Source: Paracoccus liaowanqingii (GTDB taxonomy: Bacteria; Pseudomonadota; Alphaproteobacteria; Rhodobacterales; Rhodobacteraceae). Taken from it: a DNA stretch of 64,000 bases. Position 1 is the stretch's first letter. Each line of letters starts with the position of its first letter. The DNA lies in the NCBI RefSeq assembly GCF_004683865.2, contig NZ_CP038439.1, positions 3,040,001 through 3,104,000 of the forward strand, read 5' to 3'. The notes under the pieces were generated by a model. That model ran no database searches. It worked only from the letters and a program-made list of their open reading frames with translations, and had not been told where the DNA came from. Below are positions 12,843-58,662 of the stretch, piece after piece. The position numbers and the translations under genes were made by a program.

Positions 12843-13664
12843 TTACTGCCCCGCGCTCCAGCTGAGGGATTCGTATTTGCGCGTGGTGAAGTTGATCAGA
12901 AGACCGATCATCAGAAGCCCGATGGCGCAGTACATCGGATAGAACAGGAAAGTCCGGTGCGGCGAATAGTTGATGAACAGGTAGCCGCGTTCCTGGTCGA
13001 TCAGATGGAACAGGGGGTTCCACGAGAACCAGGGAAGCATGAAGCCGGGCAGGGCATTTGCGACGAACATCTTGCCGGAGAAGATCATGTTGATCCGCTG
13101 GTAGAGGGTCGTCAGCACCCCGCTGACCTGCGGCGACCACGGGCGGATCCCCAGAAAGACCAAGCCTATGCAGCACCCCAGGAACCACGAGAGCAGGAAC
13201 AGCAGTCCCGCCCCGAGGGGATCGAAAATGGTGAAGGGCTCGATCGCAAGATAATAGAAGACGAGGATCGCAAGACAGCCGATGCTCTGCCGATAGAGCA
13301 CCGCCAGTGATGCACCGGATATCAGAATCGCTGCGTTCAGCGGTTCATGCTTGAGGATGCCGGTCGAGACCGAACTGCTGCCGGCGACCGCACCCACCGC
13401 CTGGACATGGGTGATGAACAGGAAGATGCCCGACATGATGTACAGCATGAAATCCCCGCGGATCGGCGAGGACCTCATGCCCATCAGCTGGTAGATCGCC
13501 ACAAAGACGATGACCATCAGCAGGCTTTGCACGACGGTCATGATCAGTCCCACGACCGCATTGCGATGTTCGGTCCGCAGGTTGTAGACCGTCTGGTGAT
13601 AGATCAGGGCAAAAGTGGTGAAGGCGGCCTGGAACAGGTTTCGGTTGTGACGCTGCTTGAACAA
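12843..13664 (-). CDS. Polysaccharide ABC exporter permease (KpsM/Wzm type)
   Basis: ABC-2 type inner-membrane permease likely to export a capsule-like polysaccharide. Several hydrophobic helices are visible, for example AVVGLIMTVVQSLLMVIVFV, LYIMSGIFLFITHV and PMYCAIGLLMIGLLI, with the family segment MGMRSSPIRGDF in between. The chosen TTG at 13664 has GGAG upstream and starts where homologues of this type usually begin; an ATG at 13757 would add 31 unlikely residues. No ATPase partner (KpsT/Wzt) or other export gene is adjacent, so it is an orphan in this window. By eye its GC is a little lower than that of its neighbours. Confidence 0.8.
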   Translation of the reverse strand: MFKQRHNRNLFQAAFTTFALIYHQTVYNLRTEHRNAVVGLIMTVVQSLLMVIVFVAIYQLMGMRSSPIRGDFMLYIMSGIFLFITHVQAVGAVAGSSSVSTGILKHEPLNAAILISGASLAVLYRQSIGCLAILVFYYLAIEPFTIFDPLGAGLLFLLSWFLGCCIGLVFLGIRPWSPQVSGVLTTLYQRINMIFSGKMFVANALPGFMLPWFSWNPLFHLIDQERGYLFINYSPHRTFLFYPMYCAIGLLMIGLLINFTTRKYESLSWSAGQ

Positions 13665-24068: not shown

Positions 24069-24940
24069 TCAGGAAATCAGCCGCAGCAGATATGCGCCAT
24101 AATCGTTCTTGGCGTATCGCTTGGCCTGGGCGCGCAGTTGGTCGGGGGTGATCCAGCCGGCCTCGAAGGCGATCTCCTCGGGGCAGCCGGTCTGCAGGCC
24201 CTGGCGGTTCTCCAGCGTGCGCACGAAGTTGCCGGCGTCCAGCAGGCTGGCATGGGTGCCGGTGTCCAGCCAGGCAAAGCCGCGACCCATGCGCTCGACC
24301 GTCAGGGCGCCGTCATGCAGGTAGCTTTCCAGAAGGGTGGTGATCTCCAGCTCGCCGCGATCCGAGGGCTGGACGGCGCGGGCGCGTTCCGGCGCGGTGC
24401 CGTCGAGGAAATAAAGCCCGGTGACGGCATAGTTCGAGGGCGGCACCGGGGGCTTCTCGATGATCGCGCGGGCGCGCATCTCATCGTCGAAATCCACCAC
24501 GCCGTAGCGCTCGGGGTCCGAGACGCGATAGCCGAAGACCGTCCCGCCGCTGTCGCGCCCGTCGGCCGAGGCCAGCAGCTCGGGCAGCCCGTGGCCGAAG
24601 AAGATGTTGTCGCCCAGCACCATGGCCGAAGCCGCGCCGTCCAGGAAGTCCTCGGCCAGGATATAGGCCTGCGCCAGCCCGTCGGGCGAGAGCTGGATGA
24701 TCCAGGTGAAGTCGATCCCCCACTGGCTGCCGTCGCCCAGCAGGCGCTGGAACTGGGCCTGATCCTCGGGGTGGTGATGATGGCGATCTGGCGGATGCCC
24801 GCCAGCATCAGCACCGTGATCGGATAGTAGATCATCGGCTTGTCATAGAGCGGCAGCAGCTGCTTCGACACGCCCATGGTGATCGGATAGAGCCGCGTGC
24901 CCGAGCCGCCGGCCAGAATGATGCCCTTGCGCTGTGTCAT
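24069..24940 (-). pseudogene. rmlA: Glucose-1-phosphate thymidylyltransferase, frameshifted
   Basis: Would make dTDP-glucose, the first step to dTDP-L-rhamnose. The N-terminal frame starts at 24940 ([37 protein letters not shown]) and breaks at the GGGG run 24768-24771. The rest of the enzyme ([46 protein letters not shown]) continues in another frame to the stop at 24069. The 872-base span is one base short of a 290-residue enzyme, the family norm. Adding one G restores a perfect reading frame. Either a real inactivation or a homopolymer sequencing error. The start overlaps the rmlD stop. Confidence 0.9.
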
Positions 24941-48768: not shown

Positions 48769-49670
48769 TCAAGAGTGCCCGCCAAGAAGCTGGCACAGCT
48801 TGTCGAGTTGATCCAGTTCGCGATAGGTGATGGTCAACTGACCGCTCTCGGTCCCACTGTGCGTGATCTGGACCTTCATCTTCAGGTGCGCGGACAGGTC
48901 GGCTTCAAGGGCACGGGTATCGGCATCCTTGTCCGAGGCGCGGGCAGACGTCTTGCGCGAGGCCTTGGCGTCCGACTGGCCAAGATTTCTGACCATCTCC
49001 TCGGTCTCGCGTACCGACAGGCTCTTTTCGACGATCTTTTGGGCCAATTGCGGGGCGTTCTGCGCCGTGATCAGGGCACGGGCATGACCGGCACTCAGCT
49101 TTCCGGTCTTGACCATGTCCTGCACGGCATCCGGCAGCGACAGGAGGCGCAGGAGGTTAGCAATATGGCTGCGGCTCTTGTTAAGGGCTTCGGCCAGACG
49201 CTCTTGCGTGTGACCGAAACGGTCCATTAATTGGCGGAACGATGCGGCCTCCTCGATCGCGTTCAGGTCGGCGCGCTGGATGTTCTCGATGATGGCGACC
49301 TCAAGGACCTCGGTATCCGACATCTCGCGGATGATGACGGGGATGTCGTGCAACTGCGCCATCTGCGCCGCCCGCCAGCGACGTTCGCCCGCCACGATCT
49401 GGTAAAGGCCCTTGTCTTGGGGATGGGGCCGCACGATGAGCGGCTGCAGGACGCCCCGCTGCTTCAGCGAGGCGGCCAGTTCCTGCAGCGCCTCGGGGTC
49501 GAAGCTACGCCGGGGCTGATCGGGATTCGCAGTGATCTGCTCGATCGGAACCAGGGTCCGATCGCGGGGGGTGCCGCAGCGGCCGCCGGGCCGCCATCCA
49601 GGTCCATATCCGCCATGAGGGCCGACAGGCCCCGCCCGAGGCCGCGTTTGGCAAGCTTGTTGTCCGACAT
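48769..49670 (-). pseudogene. parB: Chromosome partitioning protein ParB, frameshifted
   Basis: Centromere-binding CTPase that loads at parS and spreads. The N-terminus (MSDNKLAKRGLGRGLSALMA, the usual ParA-stimulating Arg-rich start) begins at 49670. The frame breaks at the six-G run 49566-49571. Downstream the other frame supplies the rest: LVPIEQITANPDQPRRSFD, the CTP-binding GERRWRAAQMAQL, ENIQRADLNAIEEA and the helix-turn-helix SRSHIANLLRLLSLP. The 902-base span is one base short of a 300-residue protein; one more G restores it. Because ParB matters strongly in alphaproteobacteria, a sequencing error is likelier than real loss. The start overlaps the parA stop. Confidence 0.9.
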
Positions 49671-50455
49671 CAGGCAATCTCCGGCTGAAGGTTCAGGCGC
49701 GCGGTGAACTCGGCCGCGAACTGGCGATAGGCGACACTGCCCTTGGAGCCCGGATCGTAGACCAGGACGGGCTGCGCATGCGACGGCGCCTCAGATACCC
49801 TGACATTGCGGGGAATGACGGTCGGGTAGACGAGATCTCCCAGGGTTTCGCGCGCATCGGCCTCCACCTGCTGGGACAGGTTGTTCCGATAGTCCGACAT
49901 CGTGAGCAGGATCCCGTTGATGCGAAGGCGCGGATTGGCCCCCTGCCGGACCTGCTTGACGGTGGCTAGCAACTGGGACAGCCCCTCCAAGGCGTAGAAC
50001 TCGGCCTGCAACGGAACAAGAACGCTGGACGCCGCGACCATGGCATTCACGGTCAGAAGGCCCAAGGCCGGGGGGCAATCAATGAGGATGATGGTCCCCG
50101 GAGGTGCCGCCTTGAGTTGGCGTTCCAGAAGGCGTGTCCGATCCAGCACTTGTGACAGCTGGACATCGGCAGAGGCCAGATCGGGAGTCGACGGAACGAG
50201 GCGCAGATTGTGAACATCGGTGGCGATCGCAGCCGTCTCCAGGTCCACCTCGCCGGTCAGAAGTTCATAGATCGTATGTTCGCGCTGCTCGGTCGTGATC
50301 CCCAGGCCGGTGGATGCATTCCCTTGAGGGTCCAGATCCACAAGAATCGTTGAATGCCCGGCTTGCGCCAAGGCTGCGCCCAGATTGACCGCCGTGGTCG
50401 TCTTGCCGACACCGCCCTTCTGGTTGGCAATGGCCACAATATGCTGTTCAGGCAT
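49670..50455 (-). CDS. parA: Chromosome partitioning ATPase ParA (Soj)
   Basis: 261-residue deviant Walker ATPase that segregates the origin with ParB-parS. The motif is IANQKGGVGKTTTAVNLGAALA, then ILVDLDPQGNASTGLGI and IILIDCPPALGLLTVNAM. Overlaps the rsmG 3' end by 8 bases and parB by 3. By eye its codons are somewhat less GC-rich than those of outlying genes. Confidence 0.97.
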   Translation of the reverse strand: MPEQHIVAIANQKGGVGKTTTAVNLGAALAQAGHSTILVDLDPQGNASTGLGITTEQREHTIYELLTGEVDLETAAIATDVHNLRLVPSTPDLASADVQLSQVLDRTRLLERQLKAAPPGTIILIDCPPALGLLTVNAMVAASSVLVPLQAEFYALEGLSQLLATVKQVRQGANPRLRINGILLTMSDYRNNLSQQVEADARETLGDLVYPTVIPRNVRVSEAPSHAQPVLVYDPGSKGSVAYRQFAAEFTARLNLQPEIA

Positions 50456-51041
50456 GAGAAACTCCGGTCACTTTCAGAATTGCCGCTTCCGGTTCAGTAC
50501 TACTCGGAACGGCATCCAGATCAAATCGCCAATCGTGCCTGGCATGGGCAGATTCGTCTCGCCAGGTTCGGCCCTTCATCAGATAGGCGGTCCCCGTCGG
50601 TTTCATGTGCAGATGAACCATCTCTAGAAGCTGCGGCAAGGGCGCCAGAGCGCGGGCGGAGACATGATCCGCGTTCTGGGGCGCGATGGACATGATGCGT
50701 TCTGAAATCACTGCCGCGTTCGTCAAGGAGAGTTCACGGATGACAGTACGAAGGAAGGCGGATTTCCGCTGATCGCTTTCGGTGAGAACGACCGACATCT
50801 GTCGATCGGCGCCCATGATCGCGACGACAAGCCCCGGCAGCCCGCCACCGCTTCCCAAGTCGAGCCATAGCCCAGCCTGCGGATCTGCCAAGGAAAACAA
50901 TTGCAAGCTGTCGTCGAGGTGGCGGGATCTGAAGTCCGGCAGTGTAGATGCCGCCACCAGGTTGATCTTGGGGTTCCACTTCTGAACAAGCGCGTGATAG
51001 GCCGACAGACGATCCATTGTTTCACGTGAAACACTGGTCAT
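50448..51041 (-). CDS. rsmG: 16S rRNA (guanine-527-N7)-methyltransferase RsmG
   Basis: Methylates G527 of 16S rRNA with SAM (formerly gidB). 197 residues; SAM site [20 protein letters not shown], with [11 protein letters not shown] before it and [16 protein letters not shown] after. The first codons (SVSRETM) are encoded by a complete parS site. The start overlaps the mnmG stop (ATGA). Confidence 0.95.
51018..51033. other. parS centromere site inside rsmG
   Basis: TGTTTCACGTGAAACA, a perfect 16-base palindrome matching the parS consensus TGTTNCACGTGAAACA. It falls on codons 3-8 of rsmG (VSRET and flanks), only about 1.4 kb from parAB. Expected ParB nucleation site. Confidence 0.92.
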
Positions 51042-52906
51042 GCGAGCTTCCGCTGACCGATCCTTGTCGCGGCAATGAGCAAGGTCAGTGCTGCGGGAGT
51101 TATCCCTTCGATCTTGGCCGCTTCTGCGAGGGTCGCCGGGCGCTTCTCGTCCAGCTTCCGCGAAAGCTCGCCAGACAATCCACCGAGCGAGTGATAGTCG
51201 ATATCCAAGGGCAATATGAGGCTCTCCTGCTGCCGCAGAGCAGCAGCATCGCGATCTTGCCGGTCAGTGTATTGGCTGTACAACGCATCATTCCTCAACT
51301 GTATCAGCGTTTCAGACGGCAACAGTGTCAGTTCAGGGATCTTGTCGCGCAGTTCGGCATTATCAAATTCTTGCAGACCGAGAAGGGAGAACAACGACCT
51401 TGCCTTGCCGTCCTGCCGCACTTGGAGTCCCGTCCGGTTGAGTTCCGAGGGCGTCATGTGTGTTGCTTCCGCCAATGCCCGGGCTTCCAGATACAACGCT
51501 TGCCGTTCGCCATAGGCTTTGCGCCTTTCTTCGCCGACACAGCCGAGCGCAATTCCGACGGGCGTCAGCCGCTGATCGGCATTGTCCGCGCGGAGCGTCA
51601 ACCGGAACTCCGCGCGGGAGGTGAACATCCGATAAGGTTCCGAGACACCATGGGTAACAAGGTCGTCGATCATGACCCCGATATAGCTGTTCGTCCGGCT
51701 GAAAAATGTAGGTGCCTTACCGCCAGCGACCAATGCGGCATTGATGCCGGCGACCAGCCCTTGCGCCGCTGCCTCTTCATAACCCGTCGTGCCGTTGATC
51801 TGCCCGGCCAGAAACAGACCGGGCACAGTTCTGACGTTCAACGCAGCATCAAGGCACCTCGGATCCACATAATCGTATTCGACTGCGTAACCCGGCTGCA
51901 GGATTTGCGCTCGCTCCAGTCCTTTGATGGACTTAACGTATTGTTGCTGAACTTCCGCCGGCAAGGACGTGGAAATACCATTCGGATAGACGGTGTCGTC
52001 CTCAAGCCCCTCGGGCTCAAGGAATATCTGGTGGGAGGTCTTGTCGGAAAACCTGACCACCTTGTCTTCGATGGAAGGACAATATCGCGGACCTTTTCCT
52101 GAGATATGTCCCCCATAAATCGCTGATCTCGAAAGGTTATCGCGAATGATCTGGTGCGTGACGCTGTTTGTGTGCGTGATTCCGCAAGACAACTGGCGGG
52201 CCTCGGGATGGGTGCTCAGATACGAGAACATTGATGGAATGTCGTCACCGGCCTGCATTTCCAATACCGACCAATCGATGGATTTGCCATCCAATCGGGG
52301 GGGAGTACCAGTCTTCAATCTGCCAAACGGCAGCTGATAGCGACGAAGAGCGCCTGCCAGACCCGTTGATGCCTCGCCACCCCATCGCCCCGCGGACCGT
52401 GCAACATCACCGATGTGGATCGTCGCGTTGAGGAAGGTGCCGGTCGTCAGGATGGTGGTCGTGCAAACTATCTCTTGCCCGTCTTCAAGTCTGATCCCTC
52501 GGACTGAGCCGCCATCGTCGACGAGATCGACTACCTTGCAAAAAAGAATTTCGATGCCCCGATAGTTGCGAAGCATGTCCCAGGAGGCTTGCCGATACAA
52601 CTGCCTGTCCATCTGCGCCCTGGGGCCTCGAACGGCTGGTCCCTTCCGCTGGTTCAACAGTCGGAACTGTATCCCTGCCCGATCGGCCAACCGCGACATG
52701 ACGCCATCCAAGGCATCGATTTCCCTGACCAGATGTCCTTTCCCCAGACCTCCAATGGCAGGATTGCAGGACAATGCGCCGATGTCAGATTGCTGCATTG
52801 TCACAAGGACCACCGAGGCACCCATCCGCGCTGCAGCGGCGGCCGCCTCCACTCCTGCATGACCTGCCCCAATAACAGCGACATCGTAATGTTTCACGTG
52901 GAACAT
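51038..52906 (-). CDS. mnmG: tRNA uridine 5-carboxymethylaminomethyl modification enzyme MnmG (GidA)
   Basis: FAD protein that with MnmE modifies U34 of certain tRNAs. 622 residues. FAD fold [22 protein letters not shown] near the N-terminus, then [20 protein letters not shown] and [13 protein letters not shown]. The C-terminal helical domain includes [11 protein letters not shown]. The very first residues MFHVKH are encoded by a parS site. The gene lies 3 bases after mnmE. Confidence 0.98.
52890..52905. other. parS centromere site inside mnmG
   Basis: TGTTTCACGTGGAACA on the plus strand, whose complement TGTTCCACGTGAAACA fits the consensus exactly. It covers codons 1-6 of mnmG (MFHVKH). Second parS within 2 kb of the first. 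Confidence 0.9.
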
Positions 52907-52909
52907 CTC

Positions 52910-54175
52910 CTACTTGCCGATACAGAAGGACGAAAAGATTGCATCCAGATAATCGTCAGCACCGATCTGGCCGACCAAACGGTCGAGGCAGGATGCAGCA
53001 CCGCGCAGTGATTCGGCAACCAGTTCGGCAGGAAGCCTTTCCAACCCGTCCAGGGCGGTGATTGCCCCGACGAGTTCCGCCCGCTGCCGATCATGGCTGA
53101 CGATCCCCGCTCCCGCGATACGACCGGAAACCTCGCGTTGAATGTCTGCCAGCATGTTGTCGATACCAGCGCCGGTCAGGGACGAGACGGACAAGCCGGC
53201 GGACGGAAGACCGTCATCCGCATGGCTTCGAACCGTCAGATCCCCGGGCATCCACAAATCCGTCACAGCCTGCGCATCCCGGGACAGGTGGATCCGAAGA
53301 TCCGCATCCCGGGCACGACCACGGGCACGTTCAACCCCCGCAGACTCGACCGCATCGCATGCCTCGCGCAGACCTGCCGTATCCAGAAAGGTGACGGCCA
53401 GACCCTTCAGGTCGAAGCGCAGTTCGATCACGTCGCGTGTCGTCCCCGCCACCTCCGAAACGATCGCCATCTCCCTCCGTGCCAGACGGTTCAGCAGGCT
53501 CGACTTTCCGGCATTCGGTGGTCCGATGATCGCGACTTCGAACCCCTCCCGGATCCGCTCTGCGGCCTGGAACCCGTCGATCTCCTTCTGAATCCTGACC
53601 CGCAACTCCGCGACCGCTTCGAACACCCGATCGGGGACCTCATCCGGAACATCCTCGTCCGCAAAATCCACGCTGACCTCGACCAGCGCCCCCGCTTCGA
53701 TCAACAGGGCCCGCCACTCTTCCGCCCGTCTGGCCAACTCTCCGGAGACCCCCCGCAGGGCAAGCTTGCGCTGCGCCTCGGTCTCGGCGGCCAGCAGATC
53801 CCCCAGGCCTTCGATCTCGGCCAGATCCATCCGTCCGTTCAGGAACGCACGCCGCGTGAACTCTCCGGCCTCCGCCGGGCGCGCGCCCATCTCGATCAAG
53901 GCACGCGCGACGCGCCGGGCGATCACGGGGGCGCCGTGCAGGTGCAGTTCGGCCACCTCCTCGCCCGTGAAGCTGGACCCCTGCGCGAACCAGAGGGCCA
54001 GTACCTGATCGATCAGGTCACCATCCTGCGCCAGATCGCGGAAATAGGCATGCCTCGGCAGTTCCAGCGGTCCCACCAGACGTTCGGCAGCCTCCCGCGC
54101 GCCATCTCCACTCAGGCGGATGACGGAAACGCCCCCCCGCCCGGGCGGGGTGGCTTCTGCGAAAATCAGGTCCAT
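52910..54175 (-). CDS. mnmE: tRNA modification GTPase MnmE (TrmE)
   Basis: K+-dependent GTPase acting with MnmG. 421 residues. The N-terminal folate-binding start is MDLIFAEATPPGRGGVSVIRLSG. The G domain has G1 IIGPPNAGKSSLLNRLA, the switch region VAGTTRDVIELR and G3 FLDTAGLRE. The C-terminal FCIGK gives the conserved catalytic Cys. Between mnmG and rho in the conserved origin-proximal block. Confidence 0.97.
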   Translation of the reverse strand: MDLIFAEATPPGRGGVSVIRLSGDGAREAAERLVGPLELPRHAYFRDLAQDGDLIDQVLALWFAQGSSFTGEEVAELHLHGAPVIARRVARALIEMGARPAEAGEFTRRAFLNGRMDLAEIEGLGDLLAAETEAQRKLALRGVSGELARRAEEWRALLIEAGALVEVSVDFADEDVPDEVPDRVFEAVAELRVRIQKEIDGFQAAERIREGFEVAIIGPPNAGKSSLLNRLARREMAIVSEVAGTTRDVIELRFDLKGLAVTFLDTAGLREACDAVESAGVERARGRARDADLRIHLSRDAQAVTDLWMPGDLTVRSHADDGLPSAGLSVSSLTGAGIDNMLADIQREVSGRIAGAGIVSHDRQRAELVGAITALDGLERLPAELVAESLRGAASCLDRLVGQIGADDYLDAIFSSFCIGK

Positions 54176-54186
54176 CGCTGCCCCGT

Positions 54187-55458
<1,272 letters not shown>

Positions 55459-55585: not shown

Positions 55586-56032
55586 TCAGAACTTGACGAT
55601 GACCGCCGTCACGATCGCGATCATCAGCAGGGTCGGCACCTCGTTCATCATCCGGTAGCGGCGGCCCGTCTGCGCCGCGCCGCCCTCCAGCGCGCGGCGT
55701 TCGCGGGCGCACCAGACGTGAAAAACCGTCATGCCGATCACCCCGGCGGCCTTGACCCAAGGCCAGATCATCGACCAGTCCACGATCCCGGGGGTCAGGA
55801 CCAGGCTCAGCCCGCTGATCCAGGTCGCGATCATCGCCGGGCGCATGATCACCCGCAGCAGCTTGTCCTCCATGATCACGAAGCTGGCCGTCGGCTCGGG
55901 GCCGTTGGGCCCCCGTTCCGCGTGATAGACGAACAATCTGGGCAGATAGAACAGCCCGGCCATCCACGAAATGACGGCCATGACGTGGAATGCCTTTGCA
56001 TAGGGATAGATCAGGGCCAGCCAGTCGAACAT
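55586..56032 (-). CDS. hemJ: Protoporphyrinogen oxidase HemJ
   Basis: 148-residue, four-helix membrane protein converting protoporphyrinogen IX to protoporphyrin IX. Motifs include YAKAFHVMAVISWMAGLFYLPRLFVYH (His and Trp typical of HemJ), then LRVIMRPAMIATWISGLSL and FHVWCARERRAL. The ATG at 56032 has AGAGGTGG upstream. First leftward gene next to the putative origin. Haem genes (often hemE) are common at this position in alphaproteobacteria. Confidence 0.9.
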   Translation of the reverse strand: MFDWLALIYPYAKAFHVMAVISWMAGLFYLPRLFVYHAERGPNGPEPTASFVIMEDKLLRVIMRPAMIATWISGLSLVLTPGIVDWSMIWPWVKAAGVIGMTVFHVWCARERRALEGGAAQTGRRYRMMNEVPTLLMIAIVTAVIVKF

Positions 56033-56514
56033 CACGCCACCTCTCTTCCCTCCCACTTAAATAAAAAGAAAAGAGAAAGGAATGTTGTTGTAGTAGGGGC
56101 TGTGGACAGAAGGATCTGGACTCTGCCCACCGTGATTTCCTCAGAATCAGCGCTTGTGGACAATGTCGTGGGCAAAGCGGCACGCAGCTTGATAATCGTT
56201 TGTAAACAAAGCGATCGAATGTGGATAAGGTTGAGGATAATGACCGCGCCTGCAATCTGTCCACAGATCGGCCTGTGGCGCCGTCCCGGTTGTCCACCTG
56301 TGGAGAGGCCCTGCCCGTTCCGGATCCGTTCCAGGGCGAAATCAGCATACGCGAGGGCTTGACGCATCTTGTCTTCAGGCCCCGCACCGATTCCCCCCGC
56401 CTTTCGTCCACAGCCCGTCCGCACCCGTCCGGTGACATCGGCCGCCGACGGGGCGAACAAGGTCTTTCGCCGGGCCCGTCCTGCCCCTAGTCTGCAGGTT
56501 CAATCCGGTCAGCG
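56033..56514. other. oriC: Putative chromosomal replication origin (oriC)
   Basis: 482-base gene-free gap between divergent hemJ and aroE. DnaA-box-like 9-mers: TGTGGACAG (56101), TGTGGACAA (56155), TGTGGATAA, the perfect complement of TTATCCACA (56220), CTGTCCACA (56257), TTGTCCACC (56290) and TCGTCCACA (56404). An A-rich run (about 56056-56095), unlike the rest of this GC-rich window, could be the unwinding element. Gene order on both sides (parB-parA-rsmG-mnmG-mnmE-rho-hem / aroE-coaE-dnaQ) is that known around alphaproteobacterial origins, and transcription leads away on both sides. Confidence 0.82.
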
Positions 56515-57381
56515 ATGAACGAACCCATGCAAGACGCCGTGCCCGCCAGCCAGATCAGCCATGCGCCCCTCGTGGGGGTCATCGGCATGCCGATCGCGCA
56601 TTCGCGCTCGCCCCGCCTGCATGCGCATTGGCTGGCCCGCTATGGCCTGCCCGGGCATTACATGCCGCTTCCCGTGATGCCCGAGCATCTGGCCGAGGTT
56701 CTGCGCATCCTGCCCCGTGCGGGCTTCGTCGGCGCGAATGTCACCATCCCCCACAAGGAGGCCGTGCTGACCCTGGCCGATACGGTCACCGACCGGGCCG
56801 CGCTGATCGGGGCCGCGAATACGCTGATCTTCCGCCCCGACGGCAAGATCCATGCCGACAACACCGACGGCTACGGCTTCATCGCCAACCTGCGCCAGCA
56901 CGCGCCGGACTGGCAGCCCGACCGGGGTCCGGCGGCGCTGATCGGGGCCGGGGGGGCGGCGCGGGCCGTGGTGGCCTCGCTTCTGGACAGCGGTGTCAGG
57001 GAGCTGCGCATCGCCAACCGCACGCGGCTGCGGGCCGAACAGATCAAGGCCGAGTTCGGCGCCCGGCTGGTCGTCTATGACTGGGCGCAGGTCGGCCACA
57101 TGCTGGAGGGCGCGACCACGGTCGTCAATGCGACCTCCCTGGGGATGGAGGGCAAGCAGCCCCTGCGCGTGCCGCTGGACGCGCTGCTGCCCGGCGCCTT
57201 GGTGACGGATCTGGTCTACACGCCCCTGATGACCCCCTTCCTGGTCGAGGCGCAGGCACGGGGCTGCCACGTGGTCGACGGCCTCGGCATGCTGCTGCAC
57301 CAGGCCGCCCCGGGCTTCGAACGCTGGTTCGGCCAGCGCCCCGAGGTCGATGACGAGGCGCGGCGGATCGCCTTGGGATGA
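56515..57381 (+). CDS. aroE: Shikimate dehydrogenase
   Basis: NADPH-dependent reduction of 3-dehydroshikimate to shikimate. 288 residues. The substrate domain has GVIGMPIAHSRSPRLHAHW and GANVTIPHKEAVL, the NADP fold ALIGAGGAARAVVASLLDSG, and TSLGMEG. The start at 56515 could instead be the ATG at 56527. First rightward gene from the origin. maf, often in front of aroE, is not here. Confidence 0.96.
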   Translation: MNEPMQDAVPASQISHAPLVGVIGMPIAHSRSPRLHAHWLARYGLPGHYMPLPVMPEHLAEVLRILPRAGFVGANVTIPHKEAVLTLADTVTDRAALIGAANTLIFRPDGKIHADNTDGYGFIANLRQHAPDWQPDRGPAALIGAGGAARAVVASLLDSGVRELRIANRTRLRAEQIKAEFGARLVVYDWAQVGHMLEGATTVVNATSLGMEGKQPLRVPLDALLPGALVTDLVYTPLMTPFLVEAQARGCHVVDGLGMLLHQAAPGFERWFGQRPEVDDEARRIALG

Positions 57382-57965
57382 CCTACCGGCTTGGGCTGAC
57401 CGGCAGCATCGGCATGGGCAAATCCACGACCGCGGCCATGTTCCGCGACTTGGGCCATCCGGTCTGGGACGCCGACGCGGTCGTCCATGACCTCTACGCC
57501 CCCGGCGGCGCGGCGGTGGGGCCGGTCGGGGCGGCCTTTCCGGAGGCGCTGCGCGACGGCGGGATCGACCGCGCGGCGCTCAAGCAGGCGCTGGCCGCCG
57601 ATCCGGGCGCCCTGGCGCGGCTCGAGGCTCTGGTCCATCCGCTGGTGGCCCGCGACCGGCAGGCCTTCGTCGCGCGCCATGCCGACCGCCCGCTGGTCGT
57701 GCTGGACATCCCGCTGCTGTTCGAAAGCGCCGCGCCCCCCGATCTGGACGGCGTCGCGGTGGTCTCCACCGATGCCGACACGCAGGCCGCCCGCGTGCTG
57801 TCCCGTCCCGGCATGACGCCCGAGACGCTGCGGATGATCCTTGCGCGCCAGATGCCCGATGTGGAAAAACGCCGTCGGGCCGACTGGATCATTCCGACCG
57901 ACACGCCCGAGGCGGCCCGTGCCGCCGTCGCCCGCATCGTGAAGGAGGTCACCGCCCATGCGTGA
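57378..57965 (+). CDS. coaE: Dephospho-CoA kinase
   Basis: Last step of coenzyme A synthesis. 195 residues with P-loop [40 protein letters not shown] and [19 protein letters not shown]. The start overlaps the aroE stop (ATGA) and the end overlaps dnaQ by 8 bases. Confidence 0.96.
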
Positions 57966-58662
57966 GATCGTGCTGGACACCGAAACCACCGGCTTCGACG
58001 CCGAGGGCGCCGACCGCATCGTCGAGATCGGCGCGCTGGAGCTGCTGAACCACCTGCCCACCGGCCGCACCTTCCACGTCTACATCAACCCCGAACGCGC
58101 GATGCCGAAAGAGGCGTTCGACGTCCACGGGCTGGGCGACGACTTCCTGCACGACAAGCCGAAATTCGCGGCCGTCGCGCGGGATTTCATCGACTTCATC
58201 GGGTCCGAGGCCAAGCTGGTCATCCACAATGCCAGCTTCGACATGAAATTCCTCAATGCCGAACTGAAGCGCGCAGGCCATCCGGTCCTGCCCTGGTCGC
58301 GGGCGCTGGACACGGTCGGCATGGCGCGGACCAAGTTCCCCGGCTCTCCGGCCTCGCTGGACGCGCTCTGCCGCCGCTTCGGAATCGACAATTCGGGACG
58401 CGAGCTGCACGGCGCGCTTCTGGACAGCGAGTTGCTGGCCGAGGTCTATCTGGAGCTGATCGGTGGCCGCCAGCCCGACTTGGTGCTGGACACGCCCGCC
58501 GAAGACGACGCCCCGCGCGATCCCGATGGCCGCATCCAGCCCCGCGCGCCGCGCCCGCGGCCCCTGCCGCCGCGCCTGACCCCGGCCGAGGCCCAGGCCC
58601 ATGCCGAGTTCGTCGCCGCCTTGGGCGATCAGTCCATCTGGGCGCGTTTTGCCGCACCCTGA
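57958..58662 (+). CDS. dnaQ: DNA polymerase III epsilon subunit (proofreading exonuclease)
   Basis: 3'-5' exonuclease of the replicase. 234 residues. Exo[25 protein letters not shown], Exo[20 protein letters not shown] and Exo[20 protein letters not shown] carry the acidic catalytic residues. The Pro/Ala-rich C-terminus should bind the alpha subunit. Follows coaE; secB, often next in relatives, is absent. Confidence 0.96.

Follow-up and report, generated by a model that had tools for sequence, protein, structure and literature searches.

In Caulobacter, Sinorhizobium and the Rhodobacteraceae, the origin of chromosome replication (oriC) lies at the junction of a hemE/hemJ-rho side and a maf-aroE-coaE-dnaQ side; hemE is a usual neighbour of the alphaproteobacterial oriC, and the Caulobacter origin carries CtrA-type TTAA-N7-TTAA sites. 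For the family itself, Rhodobacteraceae origins have been predicted with Ori-Finder, proximity to parAB being among the criteria (PMC6699656), and marker frequencies have been measured in Paracoccus (PMC13342612).

As set out in PMC8287927 and PMC10316083, the basal unwinding system (BUS) of Bacillus subtilis comprises a DnaA box, a short GC-rich spacer and a trinucleotide array whose box-proximal trio reads 3'-GAT-5', and the published search rule calls for a box followed by at least three N-A-N trinucleotides within 16 bp (PMC8287927). According to PMC10721633, the middle adenine of the trio is contacted by Asn187 of B. subtilis DnaA, its replacement by C gives faster growth than replacement by G or T, and residues of the Asn187 type are not universally conserved. 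The eTrio of Thermotoga maritima consists of three TAG repeats, with tandem trinucleotides needed for single-strand binding, and Escherichia coli uses the motifs TTGT/TTATT (PMC10316083).

The DNA analysed here (the window) is a 64-kb stretch of Paracoccus liaowanqingii, C1:3,040,001–3,104,000, C1 being the main chromosome (3,271,357 bp) in an assembly of 11 contigs and 4,925,228 bases. We take the 482-bp gap at window positions 56033–56514 (C1:3,096,033–3,096,514) to be the putative oriC of C1, with a probability of about 0.93; the sequence-only reading had proposed the same, and its proposal is supported by the DnaA boxes, an AT-rich element, gene order, both parS sites, the KOPS switch and a phylogenetic footprint. 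The genes run parB-parA-rsmG-mnmG-mnmE-rho-hemJ / gap / aroE-coaE-dnaQ (Table 1), which is the alphaproteobacterial arrangement around oriC. Profile matches gave the order that the sequence-only reading had cited for alphaproteobacterial origins, with a haem gene/rho/mnmE/mnmG/parAB side facing an aroE/coaE/dnaQ side, and the genes flanking the gap do read outward, hemJ on the − strand and aroE on the + strand. The locus resembles the alphaproteobacterial origins in its kind of gene neighbourhood, its DnaA boxes, its AT-rich element and the nearby parAB and parS, but differs from them in that hemE is not adjacent and, from Caulobacter, in that the 64-kb window contains no match to the CtrA-type TTAA-N7-TTAA. 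The single genome match to hemE lies at C1:1,440,738–1,441,748, ~94 kb from the terminus switch described below. The claim that this was the sole gene-free gap of more than 300 bases is nearly right: a crude ORF caller recovered the gap itself (458 bp) and a single borderline exception of 313 bp at 24624–24936. The single-strand DNA fold of the gap has a z of −2.15. Elsewhere in the window, we observed a TPP riboswitch (821–919, − strand) and, at 12951–13100 on the + strand, a hit to Cis2_sRNA of Rfam.

Table 1. Features of the putative origin region (window coordinates; mismatches of DnaA boxes are relative to TTATCCACA)
Feature	Position	Strand	Remarks
ParB	48769..49677	−	TIGR00180 above cut-off; ORF start uncertain
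ParA-family ATPase	49670..50455	−	Best NCBIfam match under cut-off; named by family and position
rsmG	50448..51041	−	TIGR00138
parS TGTTTCACGTGAAACA	51018..51033	+	Exact match; close to rsmG start
mnmG	51038..52906	−	TIGR00136; ORF begins at 52906
parS, 1 mismatch	52890..52905	+	Overlaps mnmG start codon
mnmE	52910..54175	−	NF003661
rho	54187..55458	−	TIGR00767
hemJ	55586..56029	−	PF03653 above cut-off; TIGR00701 134.5 bits, slightly below cut-off 138
A/G-rich, AT-rich stretch adjoining hemJ	56057..56081	+	Lowest-G+C 40-mer of window starts 56056; A-rich run conserved
Trinucleotides ATG TTG TTG TAG TAG (from box: 3'-GAT GAT GTT GTT GTA-5')	56082..56096	+	G periodicity
GGGC spacer, array to box, 4 bp	56097..56100	+	Mostly GGSC or GCCC in anchored loci
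DnaA box CTGTCCACA, beside array	56101..56109	−	2 mismatches; conserved
DnaA box TTGTCCACA	56155..56163	−	1 mismatch; conserved block
Second AT-rich patch, between boxes	56181..56245	+	60-mers of 38–40 % G+C start 56181, 56186
Perfect DnaA box TTATCCACA	56220..56228	−	Exact; conserved block
DnaA-box-like TTATCCTCA	56232..56240	−	1 mismatch; partly conserved
DnaA box CTGTCCACA	56257..56265	+	2 mismatches; TCCACAG conserved
DnaA-box-like TTGTCCACC	56290..56298	+	2 mismatches; partly conserved
DnaA-box-like CTCTCCACA	56299..56307	−	2 mismatches; TGTGGA conserved
Direct repeat GTTC-N7-GTTC	56317..56331	+	Conserved in alignment; spacing count
DnaA-box-like TCGTCCACA	56404..56412	+	2 mismatches; TCCACAG conserved
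aroE	56515..57381	+	NF001312
coaE	57378..57965	+	TIGR00152
dnaQ	57958..58662	+	TIGR01406

The cluster of DnaA boxes seen in the sequence-only reading is present, but it is larger than the six 9-mers then counted: eight lie within 2 mismatches and three within 1, and the perfect box complement reported at 56220 is indeed there, the word occurring nowhere else in the window without a mismatch. If boxes were as frequent in the 482-bp gap as in the remainder of the window, 0.58 would fall there (Poisson P ~2e-7 for eight); the window as a whole contains 84 within 2 mismatches, against 59.6 ± 7.6 in shuffles. No other 482 bp among the 1,253,158 bases of C1 examined in this way, which include the window, is as rich in boxes as the gap, with 8 within 2 mismatches against 6 in the next separate cluster, and with 3 within 1 mismatch against 2 in the next stretches; the remainder of C1 and the ten other contigs were searched for exact words only. 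As a word, the perfect box is not enriched genome-wide, since the 4.93-Mb assembly contains 10 copies and 16 of a reversed control pattern; three of the 55 assembly copies of TGTCCACA fall within 165 bp in the gap.

Other weak or exact boxes were recorded along C1. The second densest weak-box cluster of the DNA examined (6 within 2 mismatches per 482 bp) starts at C1:2,808,566, and at C1:2,349,866–2,349,885 a perfect DnaA box is separated by 3 bp from TGTCCACA, directly before an ORF that, by eye, reads as a DnaB helicase, the preceding gene reading as pyrE. DnaA control of helicase supply is a possible function of this pair.

At the hemJ end of the gap, the A-rich stretch noted earlier is borne out, with 25 % G+C in the 40-mer at 56056 and 66.7 % for the window; the A-rich run is kept in the Paracoccus alignment and is visible in relatives, and the stretch 56057–56081 likely belongs to a duplex-unwinding element. 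Beside it lies what we propose to be a single-strand binding array for DnaA (56082–56096). Read leftward from the box, the module comprises TGTGGACA, GGGC, TAG TAG TTG TTG ATG and then A-rich purines. It is reminiscent of the B. subtilis BUS in having a DnaA box, a short GC-rich spacer, which at 4 bp fits the 0–16 bp allowed in that system, and a trinucleotide array with a box-proximal 3'-GAT-5'.

We compared the module across 80 related loci retained from 514 (73 Paracoccus and 7 others; 81 with the window), among which the closest named HemJ is that of Paracoccus gahaiensis (95 %). Trios were counted in 77 of the 81; L076 and L077 (anchor with more than 3 mismatches) and L026 and L046 (anchor on another box) were dropped, and the loci share descent, so that the counts are not independent events. 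G occupies 90.4 % of the first positions of the five trios, the two alternative registers reaching 9.6 % and 1.8 %. At least four of the five are G in 69/77 loci, where 1000 shuffles gave 1.9 such loci on average and 8 at most. The box of the module lies within 2 mismatches in 69/77 loci, the window's own box having 2. The middle base is A in 63/77 loci at trio 1 and mixed at trio 2 (A 29, T 31, G 15, C 2), while T predominates at trios 3, 4 and 5 (58, 68 and 63 of 77), unlike the B. subtilis BUS. Three or more consecutive N-A-N trios, as the BUS rule has it, are absent from 40 of the 77 loci, including the window; in the 37 loci where they occur within 16 bp, they lie mostly 11–15 bp away, which puts them in the A-rich run or among the distal trios. 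With a tight module pattern, each of 40/121 Paracoccus genomes gave exactly one match, with zero control matches and no exact match in the remaining 81. A loose pattern (one mismatch) was uninformative and was set aside, as it matched all 121 genomes at a rate close to that of the control.

Outside the genus Paracoccus, the array is looser. For other genera of the family (92/100 genomes matching), 30 loci were taken and 27 were readable; four or more N(A/T)G in a row occur upstream of hemJ in 13 of these 27, against an expected 1.25. At the level of the class, hemE flanks carry an R1-like anchor within 3 mismatches in 13/30 loci, and pooled G by phase amounts to 47/34/7 of 65, a maximum reached by 0/5000 permutations. 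Taken singly, none of the 20 loci whose anchors surpass those of shuffles reaches 0.05, and L208, outside those 20, does; because none of the well-anchored loci is significant alone, we regard these data only as a hint of a similar array upstream of hemE in other Alphaproteobacteria.

The DnaA protein of this strain differs from that of B. subtilis where the trio is read. In an alignment to the DnaA of 8btg, which we take to be B. subtilis DnaA in the BUS structure, Glu185, Tyr189, Val192, Leu195, Ser198 and Lys204 correspond to Glu183, Asn187, Ile190, Ile193, Asn196 and Arg202; unlike in the BUS, Tyr stands for Asn187 and Lys for Arg202. The residue numbers of 8btg agree with those in PMC10721633. 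Among alphaproteobacterial DnaAs (best 30 of 93 matching genomes, own included), position 187 is Tyr in 29/30 and Phe in 1/30. The DnaA of 2z4r, presumably that of T. maritima, has Asn at this position by alignment, and E. coli DnaA has Gln. Across the four lineages compared, Asn pairs with a middle A and non-Asn residues with a middle T, a correlation and not proof. We infer that the array may tolerate a middle T, while keeping its G, because DnaA has Tyr at the position of B. subtilis Asn187. The DnaA-domain search also returned 14 further, weaker matches on C1, C6, C8, C9, C10 and C11, several with identical length and score; these are probably transposon-borne ATPases copied over the replicons.

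We lean towards a mechanism in which DnaA oligomerizes in cis along the G-periodic array and so opens the duplex. DnaA-ATP would occupy the boxes in the gap, and an oligomer seeded by the protomer at the 56101 box would extend leftward along the upper strand, each trinucleotide taking up one protomer; the oligomer would open the A-rich stretch, allowing the DnaB helicase to load, and forks would depart both ways toward a terminus near 1.535 Mb. ParB bound to the two parS sites 3–5 kb off would then segregate the new origins. In this scheme the array shares tandem trinucleotides with the T. maritima eTrio, but the functional repeats of the latter are all TAG.

An E. coli-like opening of the same origin, in which box-bound DnaA catches the T-rich strand (TTGT) by looping and no cis oligomer forms on trios, strikes us as the less likely mechanism, although several features point towards it. 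The upper strand contains TTGT, one of the motifs used in E. coli, twice (56085–56088 and 56088–56091), the box adjoins the unwinding element in the same orientation as in E. coli oriC, the sequence around it is similar to the context of E. coli box R1 (GCCCTGTGGATAACAAGGAT in locus L147), and E. coli DnaA, with its Gln, likewise lacks Asn at the 187 position. Against this stands the strict period-3 G of the window, continuous directly beside the box and separated from it by a short spacer, which is the cis geometry of BUS and distinguishes this locus from E. coli oriC. The gap also lacks a match to one consensus, WATCARNNNNTTR, which we take to be that of IHF, although a degenerate site could escape this pattern. 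The cis-oligomer and TTGT readings are not fully exclusive, because TTGT contains a 3'-GTT-5' trio.

It is much less probable that the period-3 G is a by-product of coding or low-complexity sequence with no role in opening. Coding DNA here is high in third-position G+C, and open frames on the − strand traverse the gap region. The G register relative to the hemJ frame is, however, spread evenly over the three frames (24/29/24), so the array is not a coding signal of hemJ; moreover, TAG occurs in the + register, shuffles fail to reproduce the G pattern, and the N(A/T)G runs recur in the other genera in excess of expectation.

Apart from the box count, four lines of evidence agree on the position of the origin on C1: parS, KOPS polarity, the opposite switch and the gene order. 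Within 2 mismatches, the whole assembly contains two parS sites, both 3–5 kb from the gap. A parS match is found in 71/79 related loci with enough flank, and an ATG overlaps its front, as here, in 36/79. Both sites of the window sit in gene starts, one overlapping the mnmG start codon and the other lying close to the start of rsmG. In PMC6699656, TGTTTCACG is one of three 'DnaA box' motifs by which Rhodobacteraceae origins were placed, and it equals the first nine bases of parS, so that this motif would score partition sites 3–5 kb from the gap.

KOPS were counted on both strands in sampled stretches of C1, using the E. coli motif GGGNAGGG. Twenty stretches of C1:1–1.54 Mb (right arm) gave 118 on the + strand and 30 on the −, and 18 stretches of 1.60–2.98 Mb (left arm) gave 25 and 88, respectively; a control 8-mer, GGGANGGG, showed a weaker bias of the same sign (right arm, + 64, − 37; left arm, + 33, − 49). 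In a one-switch model of 426 KOPS sites, the origin-side switch fitted best at 3.105 Mb (2-unit range 3.100–3.110, 5-kb grid). The gap lies ~9 kb left of this optimum and just beyond the 2-unit range, which is 4–14 kb away; relative to the best switch, the gap scores −2.4 lnL and the dnaA locus −27.5 lnL. KOPS polarity switches at the gap to within ~10 kb, and the dnaA locus is rejected. The opposite (ter) switch lies at ~1.535 Mb, giving arms of 1.71 and 1.56 Mb from the gap; exactly equal arms would place the origin near 3.17 Mb. A dif-like 28-mer at C1:1,535,393 coincides with the ter switch. It shares its 5 mismatches to the dif consensus with three other sites in the stretches scanned, and is suggestive only because its position falls on the KOPS switch; a dif pattern searched across the assembly returned three weak matches, none close to 1.535 Mb. 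A GC-skew minimum had been anticipated at the gap, which held only loosely: in a contiguous 511-kb stretch, the minimum lies at 3,144,097, 48 kb off, and GC skew was dropped as an origin locator, being too weak and noisy.

That the origin should instead lie at dnaA (C1:55–1413, 175 kb from the gap), as in many other bacteria, with the gap being only a DnaA-regulated divergent promoter region, is hardly credible: C1 is laid out to begin at dnaA, the equal-arm position falls between both candidates, and DnaA boxes do occur at promoters (e.g. the two before the ORF that follows the pyrE-like gene), but KOPS polarity speaks against dnaA, the two parS sites adjoin the gap and not dnaA, and the 3,500 bp around dnaA contain just 2 boxes within 2 mismatches, neither of which comes within 1.

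The gap as putative oriC is also recognizable in relatives. Divergent aroE is found across a gap of 350–1,014 bp in 62/80 loci (968–1,014 bp in the 7 non-Paracoccus loci), and in the 18 loci without an aroE hit, one of which ends at a contig end, the module and boxes can be recognized by eye upstream of hemJ. In an alignment of 73 sequences (window included; L041, which is too short, and the 7 non-Paracoccus loci left out), the conserved islands are the A-rich run, the module at 56082–56109, the boxes and CGTTC-N6-(C)GTTC at 56316–56331, with smaller islands including 56138–56142, 56207–56208 and 56374–56397. GANTC, presumably CcrM-type sites, occurs at 56119, 56144 and 56389, i.e. three times in the 482-bp gap and 83 times in the 64-kb window.

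The GTTC repeat keeps its spacing: GTTC-N7-GTTC is present in 42/81 loci, every other spacing from 0 to 20 in 0–2 loci each, and outside Paracoccus it appears in 1/23 readable loci of other genera. Its 11-bp step would suit a response regulator of the OmpR class. CenR was considered as its reader and rejected because the CenR motif, TGA-N8-TGA (PMC9275681), differs. A genome-wide regulon was likewise discarded, CGTTC-N6-CGTTC having 17 exact copies against 15 of the control.

An oriC at the hemJ/aroE gap is expected and ordinary; of more interest is the trio array with its deviations. The authors of the BUS work suspected deviant trios without a middle adenine (PMC8287927), and the Thermotoga authors did not settle by what means the DnaA proteins of E. 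coli and T. maritima recognize different single-strand motifs (PMC10316083). With its mostly T-middle, G-periodic array and Tyr at the adenine-reading residue, this genus makes both points testable, using short scaffolds and reciprocal substitutions. Search rules based on N-A-N also appear to miss part of the group, as the 40/77 loci suggest. In the literature searched, in which subscription journals are few, DnaA-trios and Alphaproteobacteria come together only in an epsilonproteobacterial study, and Asn187 and DnaA-trios only in PMC10721633. Among the titles and abstract openings listed on Paracoccus oriC, none describes such an array. Both results are weak evidence of absence.

We tentatively suggest, as a possibility short of an even chance, that alphaproteobacterial origins use a distinct single-strand opening code, namely a G-periodic array with box-proximal 3'-GAT-5' and distal 3'-GTN-5' trios, read by a DnaA with Tyr/Lys for B. 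subtilis Asn187/Arg202, and that GTTC-N7-GTTC marks a Paracoccus origin regulator. If this were true, the unwinding system would have a second specificity class, one that links the GAT motif of B. subtilis with the TTGT motif of E. coli, and the DnaA pocket residue would predict the middle base of the trio.
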